Assembly (NCBI GenBank): GCA_013359125.1
Contig: JABWCR010000001.1
Coordinates: 238,183 to 272,403, forward strand
Length of the DNA: 34,221 nucleotides
DNA from: Armatimonadota bacterium
GTDB lineage: Bacteria > Armatimonadota > Fimbriimonadia > Fimbriimonadales > GBS-DC
Direction of reading: 5' to 3'
This document shows, one piece after another, positions 30,532 through 34,221 of this stretch (positions are counted from its first letter, which is position 1; every line of letters starts with the position of its first letter). Both the position numbers and the translations under genes were made by a program. A model generated the notes under the pieces. It did not search any database and had not been told where the DNA came from. It saw nothing but the letters and a program-made list of their open reading frames with translations.

Positions 30532-31407
30532 ATGTTCCCCAGGCGAGGACAAATCGCCCTCTCCCTTCTGCCCGGCGTCGGCGCCAAATCGTTGCGTCGA
30601 GCCCTGGAGCGACAAGCCGCTATACCCCGGTCTTGGGACGAACTGGTCTCTCTGCCCGCTCCCCAAATCGCCGAAGAATACAGCCTGCCCGAACAATCCG
30701 TAACCGAGCTCCAATCCAAGGCCTCCCAATACGACGCCCAAGCCGCAGAAATCGAATCGCTCCTCGCCCGCGCCGGCGCCTACTGGATGACGATCGCCGA
30801 TTCGGCCTATCCCAACCGCCTGCTCGCGCTAGACGAGCCGCCGCCCATCCTCTACGGCTACGGCGACTGGGAACTGCTCTCCAAGCCCAAAGCCGCCCTC
30901 ATGCTCTCTCGCAAGTTTAGCGACGCCGCCGGACAAGAGACCGAAGAACTCGCGCGCCTCTTTGGAGAGCAGGGCTTTACAATCGTAACCAGCCTCCACC
31001 CAGAAGGCTATCGCCGGTCGGTCATGGCCTGCCTCAGACACAACTTGCCCTACTGCTTGGCGCTCGATAGAGGCCTGCTAGACGCATTTGGCGACGACCT
31101 AAGAAAGGAGCCGCTGGCTGCAGCCCGCATCTGGCGAGCCGAGTTCGATCCCTACCGTGCATTGGCAATCAGCGCCTTTCGACCCCGAGACCCCTGGAGA
31201 GCGCCCTCCGGTTTGTTGCGAGACGAACTGGTTATAGCCCTCTCCGATACCGTGATCGCGGTCGAGATCAGCCAGGGCGGACAGATCGACCGATTGCTCA
31301 AAGACGCCGTCCGCAGAGGCCAGGACGTTCGAGCGATAGCGACCGAAGACCGACCGGGCAACCAAGAGCTGATCGAAGCGGGCGCAACGCCCTTTGGCGC
31401 CCCATGA
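30532..31407 (+). CDS. Divergent DprA/Smf-like protein
   Basis: 291 residues. A helix-hairpin-helix-like start (SLLPGVGAKSLRRALE) is followed by the DprA hallmark YPNRLLALDEPPPILYGYGD (93-112). A Rossmann-like region then aligns in order with DprA but is altered. The GSR position reads ALMLSRKF, the SGLA...GID nucleotide-binding segment is replaced by VTSLHPEGYRRSVMA, and the RNRII segment reads LLRDELVIALSD. VIAVEISQGGQID and the closing IEAGATPF still follow the family. It probably derives from DprA, which loads RecA on incoming DNA, but may have lost that activity. No SD is visible; TAATAT at 30517-30522 would give a nearly leaderless message. It overlaps the next gene by ATGA. Confidence 0.65.
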   Translation: MFPRRGQIALSLLPGVGAKSLRRALERQAAIPRSWDELVSLPAPQIAEEYSLPEQSVTELQSKASQYDAQAAEIESLLARAGAYWMTIADSAYPNRLLALDEPPPILYGYGDWELLSKPKAALMLSRKFSDAAGQETEELARLFGEQGFTIVTSLHPEGYRRSVMACLRHNLPYCLALDRGLLDAFGDDLRKEPLAAARIWRAEFDPYRALAISAFRPRDPWRAPSGLLRDELVIALSDTVIAVEISQGGQIDRLLKDAVRRGQDVRAIATEDRPGNQELIEAGATPFGAP

Positions 31408-32246
31408 AACTCTCGATCTGCATCGTAACCTGGAACTGCCGCGACCTTCTGCGCGCCTGCCTAGAATCTATCCCCCGGCGCGACGACTTTGAGACCATCG
31501 TGGTGGACAACGCCTCTAACGACGGCACGGCACAAATGGTCGAACAGGAGTTCCCCTGGGTTCGCCTCATCGCCAACGATCAGAACCAACTGTATGCCAA
31601 AGGCAACAATCAAGCCTTCGAAACTGCAATGGGAGAATTCGTCCTCATGCTCAACCCCGATACCGAACTCGAACCCGACGCGCTGGACAACGCCTTGGCC
31701 GTTCTCGATGAGCATCCCGATGTCGGCGCGGTCGGCGGCCTCCAGAGATTCCCAGACGGCACAATCCAGCCCTCAGTGCGCGGCTTTCCGACGCCCTCCG
31801 CGCTCTTTTACGAAACGATCGGCCTGGCCCGGATCTTCCCACGCTCAAAAAAACTAAACGTCTATCGGATGCGATGGTTCAAATACGACCAAGAAATCGA
31901 AGTCGATCAACCAATGGCGACCTTCCTCATGACGCGGCGAATCGTCATAGAGCAAGTCGGCGGTATGGACGAGCGCTTTCCCCTCTTCTTCAACGACGTC
32001 GATTGGTGCTATCGGGTCAGGCAGGCCGGCTGGAAAATCCTCTTCAGCCCCAACGTCCGCCTCGTCCACCACGGCGGCGCCAGCACTAGCCAAGCGCGCA
32101 AGTGGGCGATCCGAGAATCCCACCGCTCCCTAGAAGAGTTCTATCGAAAACATTACCAAACTCGCCTCTGGCCCTCGCTCTACTGGACGATTGTCGGACT
32201 GATACGAATAACTGGCTTCTTACGCCCGCTCAAAGCCAAGAACTGA
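31404..32246 (+). CDS. Family 2 glycosyltransferase (rhamnosyltransferase-like)
   Basis: 280 residues. GT-A features are seen in order: SICIVTWN at the start, VVDNASNDGT, LMLNPDTELEP (DxD-type metal site) and GGMDERFPLFFNDVDWCYRVRQAGW, which contains the catalytic-base ED/DVD region. A hydrophobic helix near the C-terminus (WPSLYWTIVGLIRITGFL) may tether it to the membrane. It resembles WbbL-type rhamnosyltransferases that build cell-surface polysaccharide, but donor and acceptor are unproven. It overlaps the DprA-like gene in ATGA. A rmlD-like gene elsewhere in the window could supply a deoxysugar. Confidence 0.9.
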   Translation: MKLSICIVTWNCRDLLRACLESIPRRDDFETIVVDNASNDGTAQMVEQEFPWVRLIANDQNQLYAKGNNQAFETAMGEFVLMLNPDTELEPDALDNALAVLDEHPDVGAVGGLQRFPDGTIQPSVRGFPTPSALFYETIGLARIFPRSKKLNVYRMRWFKYDQEIEVDQPMATFLMTRRIVIEQVGGMDERFPLFFNDVDWCYRVRQAGWKILFSPNVRLVHHGGASTSQARKWAIRESHRSLEEFYRKHYQTRLWPSLYWTIVGLIRITGFLRPLKAKN

Positions 32247-32263
32247 AACCTCAGACCAAAGTC

Positions 32264-32289
32264 CCTGGGCGCGATCAACCGCGCCCAGG
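32264..32289 (+). terminator. Hairpin after the glycosyltransferase gene
   Basis: Perfect 10-base GC-rich arms (CCTGGGCGCG and its complement) with a 6-base loop, 17 bases after the glycosyltransferase stop and 16 bases before the lipase-like start. The tail TATTCTC is not a strong T-tract, so it may attenuate transcription or shape the lipase leader. Confidence 0.6.
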
Positions 32290-32305
32290 TATTCTCACGA
32301 GTACT

Positions 32306-34030
32306 ATGAGCGTGCTACCCATCATCTTAGTCCGCGGTTTCGATCTGTTGGGCGGAAGCGCCGCCGACCCTTTCCACGGCTGGAACGAAGGAACCGTCAA
32401 CCCGCACAAACTGGGCGACAACTACATCTACGAAGGCATGGTGGTTCGATTCCTCAAAACCGAACTCAAACTGCCGCAAGATCAAGGCTCCACCACCTAC
32501 CTCGATGCGACCAACGCCCTCAACTACGCCGCCAGCACGCGCCAACAGACCGGAATCGACCCCAACCGCCTGGCTAGGCTCAAGACAGACTTCGGACACC
32601 TGCCCGAATCCACCCTGACCGAATGGCTGACAGGACGCATCTGGGTGGACGAAACCATCGCCAAACAGTACAAGGGCAAGCATAACACCTTCTGGGTCTT
32701 TCGATACTACGACTTTGCCGGGGCGGCGGCCAAACGCAGCCTGGAAGTGGAGGCCGACGGCCTGGCCGAGACCATCGAGCGCGTCCTGGCCATCACCGGC
32801 GCGCCGTCCGTCTATCTCATCTGCCACTCCATGGGCGGCGTCATCGCCCGATGCATGATGCAGCGAACCTACCTGCTAAAGCAGAAATCGGCCGGCCTGA
32901 ACATGACCGACGACCAATTCGTCCTCACCGCGCCCCCGGCAGCCCGCACCGCCGCCAAAAAACTCGCCCTTAGCCGCGTGGCCAAATGGATCACTATGGG
33001 CACGCCCCATCGCGGAGTGCCCTTCCAAGTGGTCCCGACCGACTTCTACGCCGAGACCGAGTACTTTAACGCAGAGTTTTTTGCCCGCAAAATGGGCAAG
33101 AAGAGCGATGACAAACGGACGCCAGACCAGTTCTTGGGCGACACGAAGGCCTTCTTCGATCCCGAGCGCGTCCTCTGTGTCGTAGGCACTAATCACCGCG
33201 CTTATGGCGGCGTCATGGGCAGCGTAACCCGCTCCGCAAACCAGGTCGTGTCGTGGCTGCAGGGCAAAGAAGCCAACCACAGCGACGGTTTGATCAAGCA
33301 ATCTTCCGCCGCCCTGGCCGGAGCCTACAAAGCCTTCGTGCACAAGCCCCATACCGGGCGCGACAGCCTCATCTCGTGCCGAGAAAGCTTCGAACTCGCC
33401 GTGCGCTTCCTGTTCGGCGACGTTCGAGTCAGACTGCGACTGGAAAGCCTGACGATCCGAAGAAGCAAGAAGATCATGTCGCGATTAGGACAAATGCTGG
33501 ACGGCAAGCCCGAATACTTCATCGGCTTCTCCGTCAAACCGCGCCGAGTGGACTTCTTCCTCAATCAGATGACCAAAGATTCGGAAAACTGCTTCGGCCC
33601 CTTCAGCACAGAAGCGATCAAAACGGACCAGATCAAGTGGGACAAAGAGGACAAATCGAAGGACGGTGTCGTGTTCGAAGGCGTCTTCAACTCCGCGCTG
33701 GCCAACTTCAACCCAAAAACCGATGAGTTCAAAGACCTGGCCTATCGAGTCGACATCTACATCGGCGAGCGCGATTCCTACCTCCTGGGCTTTTCCGACA
33801 CCAAGATAGTCGACGATACCTTCTACATGCTCTTGGTCAACGAGGGCGGAGCGCTAAAGGCCGTGCTGGTGCCCAACGACAGAGGCACGAACGCAGGCAT
33901 GATCGCCCAACCCCTGGTCAACAATCGATGCCGGTTCGTCGTCCCCAGCGGCCTCGTCCACGAAAACGTCGCCATGACGCTCTCGTTAGAAATCGACCCC
34001 AGCCAAAGCGCCCTTATGCCGACTGGATAG
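32306..34030 (+). CDS. Lipase-like alpha/beta hydrolase with unassigned C-terminal domain
   Basis: 574 residues from MSVLPIILVRGFDLLGG. Residues ~1-375 look like an alpha/beta hydrolase: strand plus RGF oxyanion region, nucleophile S175 in LICHSMGGVIAR (Cys at the first Gly position of GxSxG), and MGTPHRGVPF (231-240). The likely catalytic His is H349 in KPHTGRDSLISCRESF. The last ~200 residues (YFIGFSVKPRRVDFFL...RVDIYIGERDSYLLGF...ENVAMTLSLEIDP) are beta-rich and not recognised. No signal peptide, so cytoplasmic or unconventionally secreted. Substrate unknown; lipid ester or thioester cleavage is a guess. No strong SD; the hairpin at 32264 lies in the leader region. No immunity or secretion genes are adjacent. 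Confidence 0.75.
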   Translation: MSVLPIILVRGFDLLGGSAADPFHGWNEGTVNPHKLGDNYIYEGMVVRFLKTELKLPQDQGSTTYLDATNALNYAASTRQQTGIDPNRLARLKTDFGHLPESTLTEWLTGRIWVDETIAKQYKGKHNTFWVFRYYDFAGAAAKRSLEVEADGLAETIERVLAITGAPSVYLICHSMGGVIARCMMQRTYLLKQKSAGLNMTDDQFVLTAPPAARTAAKKLALSRVAKWITMGTPHRGVPFQVVPTDFYAETEYFNAEFFARKMGKKSDDKRTPDQFLGDTKAFFDPERVLCVVGTNHRAYGGVMGSVTRSANQVVSWLQGKEANHSDGLIKQSSAALAGAYKAFVHKPHTGRDSLISCRESFELAVRFLFGDVRVRLRLESLTIRRSKKIMSRLGQMLDGKPEYFIGFSVKPRRVDFFLNQMTKDSENCFGPFSTEAIKTDQIKWDKEDKSKDGVVFEGVFNSALANFNPKTDEFKDLAYRVDIYIGERDSYLLGFSDTKIVDDTFYMLLVNEGGALKAVLVPNDRGTNAGMIAQPLVNNRCRFVVPSGLVHENVAMTLSLEIDPSQSALMPTG

Positions 34031-34104: not shown

Positions 34105-34123
34105 AGACGAAACGGGGCCGCCC

Positions 34124-34221
34124 GGGAGGGCGAGCGTCCCCGCGAGCCCAAAACGGACCCGTCGGGAGGGCGAGCGTCCCCGCGAGCCCAAAACGGACCC
34201 GTCGGGAGGGCGAGCGTCCCC
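34124..34221. repeat. 40-bp tandem repeat, running off the right edge
   Basis: A 40-base unit beginning GGGAGGGCGAGCGTCCCC is present as two full copies (34124-34163, 34164-34203) and a partial third cut by the window end. The two full copies are identical. A degraded version of the end of the unit precedes the first copy (34110-34123). Each unit has a small dyad (GGGA...TCCC). GC-rich, with no gene evident. Confidence 0.9.

Follow-up and report, generated by a model that had tools for sequence, protein, structure and literature searches.

DprA is among the most widespread proteins of bacterial DNA uptake, and the roles of its relatives beyond competence are largely open. Nucleoside 5'-monophosphate phosphoribohydrolases of the LOG type carry the catalytic motif PGGxGTxxE. 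According to the available extracts of the respective reports, mutation of R115 in S. pneumoniae DprA (SpDprA) lowers the affinity for ssDNA (PMC4066776), and DprA-like proteins act as antitoxins or defence partners in systems such as shosTA, syrTA, and rqlHI (PMC9122126, PMC4670107). The DNA analysed herein (the window) is a stretch of 34,221 nucleotides located terminally on contig C1 in a 2.82-Mb Armatimonadota genome of the order Fimbriimonadales, and it encodes a divergent DprA paralogue, hereafter referred to as P1. A search of the openly accessible literature, outside which most subscription papers lie, turned up no report of a second DprA from this phylum.

As summarized in Table 1, P1 is followed on the same strand by a glycosyltransferase gene, and both the ATGA overlap of the two open reading frames (ORFs) and the identity of the downstream product as a glycosyltransferase were as described in a first-pass annotation of this DNA. 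The P1 frame was open over its full length and matched the Pfam family PF02481 with an E-value of 1.3e-12 (47.8 bits versus the gathering cut-off of 29.6), and its score of 41 bits against the DprA equivalog TIGR00732 fell 150 bits short of the curated cut-off of 191. Upstream of P1, a PEP-CTERM gene (PF07589; 29452-30477, minus strand) is divergently arranged, and its real start is probably located further in than the listed TTG. An alpha/beta-hydrolase gene (PGAP1-like, 1.2e-6; 32102-34030) lies downstream, and since its listed GTG start overlaps the glycosyltransferase gene, the true start is probably an ATG near 32307. The contig terminates in a perfect tandem repeat of 40 bases in 2.5 copies (window 34123-34221), which is the likely reason for the assembly break.

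Table 1. Features of the P1 gene and the overlapping glycosyltransferase gene, in window positions.
Feature	Position	Strand	Remark
P1 gene, divergent DprA paralogue	30532..31407	+	291 aa, ATG start
N-terminal helical (SAM/HhH-like) domain, approximately residues 1-80	30532..30771	+	Model helices H4-11 to H64-81; the 3uqz match spans model 1-291
Ser126-Arg127, counterpart of the DprA GS/TR motif	30907..30912	+	Arg127 at the SpDprA R115 place
Tyr160, counterpart of the aspartate in GID (SpDprA D147)	31009..31011	+	Tyr in 65/65 P1; Asp in 20/20 canonical
P1 signature AR-[IL]-W-...-F-D, residues 199-206	31126..31149	+	Alignment conservation
Arg230-Asp231, at RN of RNRII	31219..31224	+	R and D in 65/65 P1; R and N in 20/20 canonical
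Gly250, at the first Ser of SGSLIT	31279..31281	+	Gly in 65/65 P1; Ser in 20/20 canonical
ATGA, overlap of P1 stop and GT2 start	31404..31407	+	Sequence; 4 bases in locus L068 too
GT2 glycosyltransferase gene, 280 aa	31404..32246	+	PF00535, 3.2e-23; neighbour without conserved pairing

Structure prediction and comparison with DprA, the check proposed along with the first-pass annotation, yielded a confident model of the window P1 (mean pLDDT 94.8, pTM 0.91) with the whole DprA fold. The best structural match was S. pneumoniae DprA (3uqz; Z 25.8 over 261 residues, 2.7 Å, 20% identity), in which model residues 1-291 were matched to residues 2-278, followed by ShosA (8zva, Z 24.2) and the DprA proteins of H. 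pylori and R. palustris (Z 24.1), and the nucleotide-binding SLOG relatives ranked after these DprA-type structures (Moco carrier protein, Z 13.8; LOG with AMP, Z 10.8). The predicted fold consists of a helical N-terminal (SAM-like) domain and an extended Rossmann domain, and the model has no C-terminal winged helix.

The motifs YP and PPPILYGYG and the DprA-like ending, which had been noted as retained, were all found in the window P1. The accompanying claim that the GSR, SGLA-GID, and RNRII motifs had been lost held for the most part but went too far: SGLA-GID has given way to TSLHPEGY, whereas GSR reads LSR, in which the Gly is lost but Ser126 and Arg127 are retained, and RNRII reads RDELV, in which Asn has become Asp and the second Arg has become Glu but the first Arg remains.

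A set of 65 P1 proteins and, from the order, 20 canonical DprA proteins were mapped onto the SpDprA numbering. At the S114 place, all 65 P1 proteins carry Ser and all 20 canonical proteins carry Thr, and the R115 place, Arg in every canonical protein, is occupied in P1 by Arg in 46 proteins, the window included, by His in seven, Asn in seven, Ala in four, and Lys in one. The R208 counterpart is Arg throughout both sets. At the places of D147, N209, and S228, three residues invariant in the canonical set were exchanged for three others invariant in P1 (Table 1), and such a swap of invariants over ten-odd families argues against random loss. The S230 place is Met in 56 of the 65 P1 proteins (Ala in 18 and Ser in two of the canonical ones). 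At N177, 64 of the 65 P1 proteins have Arg, although this mapping is less sure, since P1 carries an insertion there that makes the alignment uncertain at approximately residues 185-215. Within the P1 signature, R199, W201, F205, and D206 were invariant among 47 proteins (alignment A2, described below), and in the relatives outside the order (alignment A4) R199 was nearly invariant and the other three varied. As for the RecA-interacting patch, the E265 place is acidic in 18 of the 20 canonical proteins and none of the six commonest P1 entries there, one of which is a gap, is acidic; E235 does not rank among the top four residues even in the canonical DprAs of the order, so that the evidence from this patch is weak. 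The median pI was 7.1 and 8.4 in two P1 sets, as against 5.6 for canonical DprA. The lower acidity of the P1 group would favour the binding of nucleic acids, but the window protein, with a pI of 5.2, is itself acidic.

These residues bear on whether P1 could still be a DprA-like ssDNA-binding recombination mediator, acting in chromosomal repair or on another source of DNA, with the exchanged residues merely tuning its activity. The complete fold, the invariant Ser of the GS/TR motif, the Arg next to it in the window protein and most of its relatives, the invariant R208 counterpart, and the neutral to basic pI of the group all fit such a role. The exchange of the GID Asp, RN Asn, and SGS Ser in every P1 protein, the replacement of the R115 counterpart in 19 of 65, the wide miss of the TIGR00732 cut-off, and the acidity of the window protein speak against it, and we regard this explanation as possible but doubtful. 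P1 probably does another job than DprA. Its crevice would still hold a phosphate-bearing ligand, be it a nucleotide or the end of a nucleic acid, but would differ from DprA in specificity, and the contacts may be provided by Ser126, Arg127 (in most members), Arg230, Tyr160, Asp231, and perhaps Arg199.

The genome of the window contains two PF02481 genes, and many genomes of the order contain three. The second gene is a canonical dprA (G000:C3; 245.9 bits; 389 aa from the first start codon of the ORF), and a ComEC gene (173 bits) was identified as well, so that competence can use another copy, just as the annotation had surmised. P1 would hence not be the RecA loader of competence, because canonical DprA and ComEC are present and the GID, RN, and SGS residues are exchanged; it would probably fulfil a stand-alone, chromosomal function in the handling of nucleotides or ssDNA. 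Our favoured reading, to which we assign a probability of roughly 0.6, is that P1 is an old neofunctionalised DprA paralogue with a pocket remodelled for a nucleotide or ssDNA and a role outside classical competence. The earlier suggestion of a neofunctionalised protein agrees with a separate family whose pocket residues are invariant and its own. The order-wide retention, beside the normal copy, of a second DprA in which pocket residues are exchanged amounts to a natural experiment in which one fold carries a different fixed residue set.

The distribution of P1 was assessed by two kinds of search. At E ≤ 0.001, the single-protein search found 97 of the order's 101 genomes to have a match (own genome included), and as two of them (G011 and G017) matched solely via another DprA-like gene, the P1 count is 95 of 101. 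Among the genomes with a completeness of 90% or more and a contamination of 5% or less, P1 was present in 86 of 87, again including its own; the exception, G042, which lacked P1 in both searches, is 98% complete, which means that the gene can be lost. MAGs labelled Fimbriimonas ginsengisoli (L088 and L089) carry P1. In the profile search, 104 of 113 genomes of the order had a best E-value ≤ 1e-42 (our own count from the results table), and eight of the nine others are less than 90% complete. Outside the order, 48 of 178 genomes of the phylum, from ten families, matched at E ≤ 1e-42 by the same count, and the remaining 130 had no match at this level, the next best genomes standing at 1e-25 or weaker; P1 proteins were read from nine of these ten families (f28 was left out). 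In the fetched loci, the P1 profile gave P1 proteins 171 bits or more, a short form termed P2 117-130 bits, and canonical DprA no more than 53 bits, a gap blurred by DprA-like proteins that are neither P1 nor canonical (P3), which reached 92 bits. Among the best P1 matches listed, six (G033, G052, G057, G075, G089, and G091) were flagged with one in-frame stop, which was the last codon of the match in both cases read (L027 and L028).

In genome_contigs, a single-sequence scan found no relative, and the relatives obtained from this collection, 65 among 79 stretches, came from one peptide pattern fitted to the order and have no bearing on the spread beyond Armatimonadota. In phages and plasmids, the window protein gave weak DprA-type matches only, in 5 and 13 records, respectively. 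Two records carry labels at odds with their content: JADZEW010000001.1 (L093), titled Methanoregulaceae archaeon, bears a P1 of the Fimbriimonadaceae type, and its title looks like a label error; CAKLQH020000035.1 (L199), named Acinetobacter phage MD-2021a, shows the consecutive genes def, one for a LysM protein, smf/dprA, and yrdC and looks like host chromosome.

Two alignments of P1 proteins were used. Alignment A2 comprised the window protein and 46 of 55 full-length references (L071, L072, L080, L086, L093, L102, L108, L109, and L111, mostly near-copies or truncated, were omitted), and A4 comprised 18 of the 20 fetched proteins from outside the order (the near-copy L143 and the long fused ORF L153 were excluded). 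For the tree, 74 proteins were taken, namely every third A2 row (16), all 18 A4 rows, six P2 rows (A5), 10 canonical rows (every second canonical protein), 20 P3 rows, and four references. A branch with 100/100 support separated P1 and P2 together from canonical DprA, ShosA, PsyrA, and P3, with the bootstrap unsettled at a correlation of 0.972. The six outside-order families with at least two rows (f12, f13, f16, f19, f32, and f34) each came together with support, as expected under vertical descent. Eighteen columns were invariant among the 47 proteins of A2. Of the 35 pairs more than 72% identical, which share sequences with one another, 23 gave finite dN/dS values of 0.016-0.33 (0.16-0.33 in pairs from the window's own family); the window gene itself stands outside this comparison, since its nearest relative is only 44-45% identical (45% at most). 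The relatives of the window P1 are under purifying selection, and P1 is a real, conserved, and separate branch of the DprA superfamily; these evolutionary and structural statements are well supported.

A decaying or dispensable dprA copy, the alternative nearest to the label "degenerate" in the annotation, would be in keeping with the loss of the GSR Gly and the GID and RNR motifs and with the lack of P1 in the near-complete G042. With the gene retained in all but one of the good genomes, low dN/dS, 18 invariant columns, and a confident model, however, we find decay hardly credible, and the label had to be abandoned for an open frame whose relatives are evidently maintained.

The gene neighbourhood was compared over 76 loci including the window, with the partial loci L079, L117, and L118 omitted and some loci ending soon after P1. 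A GT2 homologue directly followed P1 in one of the 75 other loci, namely L068, a member of the window's family with 63% identity in the glycosyltransferase and the same 4-base overlap, which is also the only such case among the eight other loci of that family; homologues were located approximately 1.2 kb downstream in L091 and L093 and further off in L151. In the other families of the order (L069-L115), the place directly upstream on the same strand is taken in 45 of 47 loci by a PNP-superfamily gene (PF01048; identified by a Pfam scan of one locus), which occurs there in none of the eight other loci of the window's family. From its sequence, this gene appears to be MTA-phosphorylase-like, and the proximity of a nucleoside phosphorylase to a nucleotide-binding fold is no more than suggestive. 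In family f16, a ParB-like gene precedes P1 in both loci (confirmed by Pfam for L155). The partners of P1 change between families, as would be expected for a stand-alone gene.

Joint action of P1 and the coupled glycosyltransferase in polysaccharide or surface biosynthesis could be argued from the overlap shared by the window and L068, but the rarity of the adjacency even within the family, together with the PNP-superfamily and ParB-like genes that fill the neighbouring places elsewhere, makes it highly improbable; the overlap is a chance product of the local gene arrangement, and the coupling loses its value as a functional clue. The annotation had named an unconserved pairing as an observation that would tell against it, and this applies to the glycosyltransferase pairing but not to the neofunctionalisation.

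The short form P2 (L120, L122-L126, and L177-L196) comprises proteins that measure 174-230 aa from the earliest possible start in the loci read and match only the P1 core: the P1-specific segment is kept, and the N-terminal domain and the last strands are missing. Pfam searches of four P2 proteins gave nothing above the cut-off, and the structure model, built on six sequences, was poor (pLDDT 46). In the tree, P2 nests inside the P1 of Fimbriimonadaceae. P2 was found at 46 places in 30 of the 101 genomes (fragments counted, second pieces merged; our own selection from the results table), and an ArdC-N gene is found at a distance of up to 2 kb from 17 and up to 10 kb from 27 of these places, against 0.11 and 0.57 expected from genome size and random placement; 23 of the 27 are on the opposite strand. 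P2 occurs in 30 and ArdC in 37 of the 101 genomes, both together in 23 (Fisher p 1.4e-7); as the expectation presupposes random placement and the Fisher test takes no account of relatedness, these figures demonstrate shared islands and not a direct partnership. Pfam identified neighbouring ArdC at two P2 loci, HsdM at one, and HsdR at one, and P2 sits in restriction/defence islands. Neither P2 nor ArdC was found in the genome of the window, and searches of viral_contigs and plasmids found no P2.

A further proposal is compatible with the data but speculative and rather unlikely: P1, encoded in the chromosome, would sense or handle foreign DNA, or else a nucleotide made upon its arrival, and mobile elements and defence islands would have captured the truncated P2 as a mimic or decoy beside ArdC that blocks or redirects P1. 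With the truncated form beside ArdC, a link to the way in which incoming DNA is handled can be put to the test.

The known defence-associated relatives offer one more alternative, in which P1 would be an antitoxin of the PsyrA/ShosA kind, the partner of a RecQ helicase or a phosphoribosyltransferase toxin. The PADLOC models for PsyrA (1.1e-19, 69 bits) and ShosA (1.6e-13) did match the window P1, and the ShosA structure was the second-best structural match. On the PsyrA model, however, the PsyrA of an E. coli plasmid, annotated next to a RecQ helicase, scored 577 bits, as against 32-85 for five P1 proteins and 95 for a canonical DprA. In the tree, PsyrA grouped at 100/98 (bootstrap unsettled) with L160, L162, and L163 of the order, on the other side of the 100/100 branch from P1 and P2, and each of these PsyrA-like genes adjoins an ORF of 687-698 aa that is RecQ-like by eye. 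The two genes adjoining the window P1, GT2 and PEP-CTERM, include neither RecQ nor a phosphoribosyltransferase, and no RecQ-like gene was seen by eye among the adjoining same-strand ORFs of the 76 loci. Membership of PsyrA or ShosA was rejected on this tree, in which P1 clusters apart from both, and on the model scores, and we judge the antitoxin explanation very unlikely.

Further DprA relatives of the order came to light. L203, L204, and L205 (in G066, G090, and G081) are PsyrA-like and likewise stand beside an ORF that is RecQ-like by eye, and such pairs are probably PsyrTA-type systems in Fimbriimonadales. The P3 proteins (L157-L176) constitute further DprA-like groups, many of which have a GGTWxGA-like motif near the SGSLIT place.

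Compared with the known systems, P1 shares a Rossmann core with the SLOG nucleotide-binding proteins (LOG, Moco carrier protein, and ThsA; Z 8.9-13.8) but differs from them in its DprA-type N-terminal domain and in the lack of PGGxGTxxE, which was not seen by eye in the P1 alignments, where the proteins outside the order mostly read RPGGxME and the window protein reads SQGGQID. With PsyrA and RqlI, the antitoxin of a RecQ-like helicase, it has the DprA-like core in common and differs in its tree position, its far lower model score, and the absence of an adjoining RecQ from the window locus. ShosA (8zva) possesses the same fold, but groups with canonical DprA in the tree, and the window gene is without an adjoining phosphoribosyltransferase. 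The closest counterpart is DprA/Smf itself (PF02481; 3uqz and 4ljk), with which P1 shares the helical N-terminal domain, the extended Rossmann domain, the PPxLYxxG strand, and the overall fold, whereas the GID Asp, RN Asn, and SGS Ser are replaced by invariants of its own, its TIGR00732 score lies below the cut-off, and a canonical copy coexists in the same genome.
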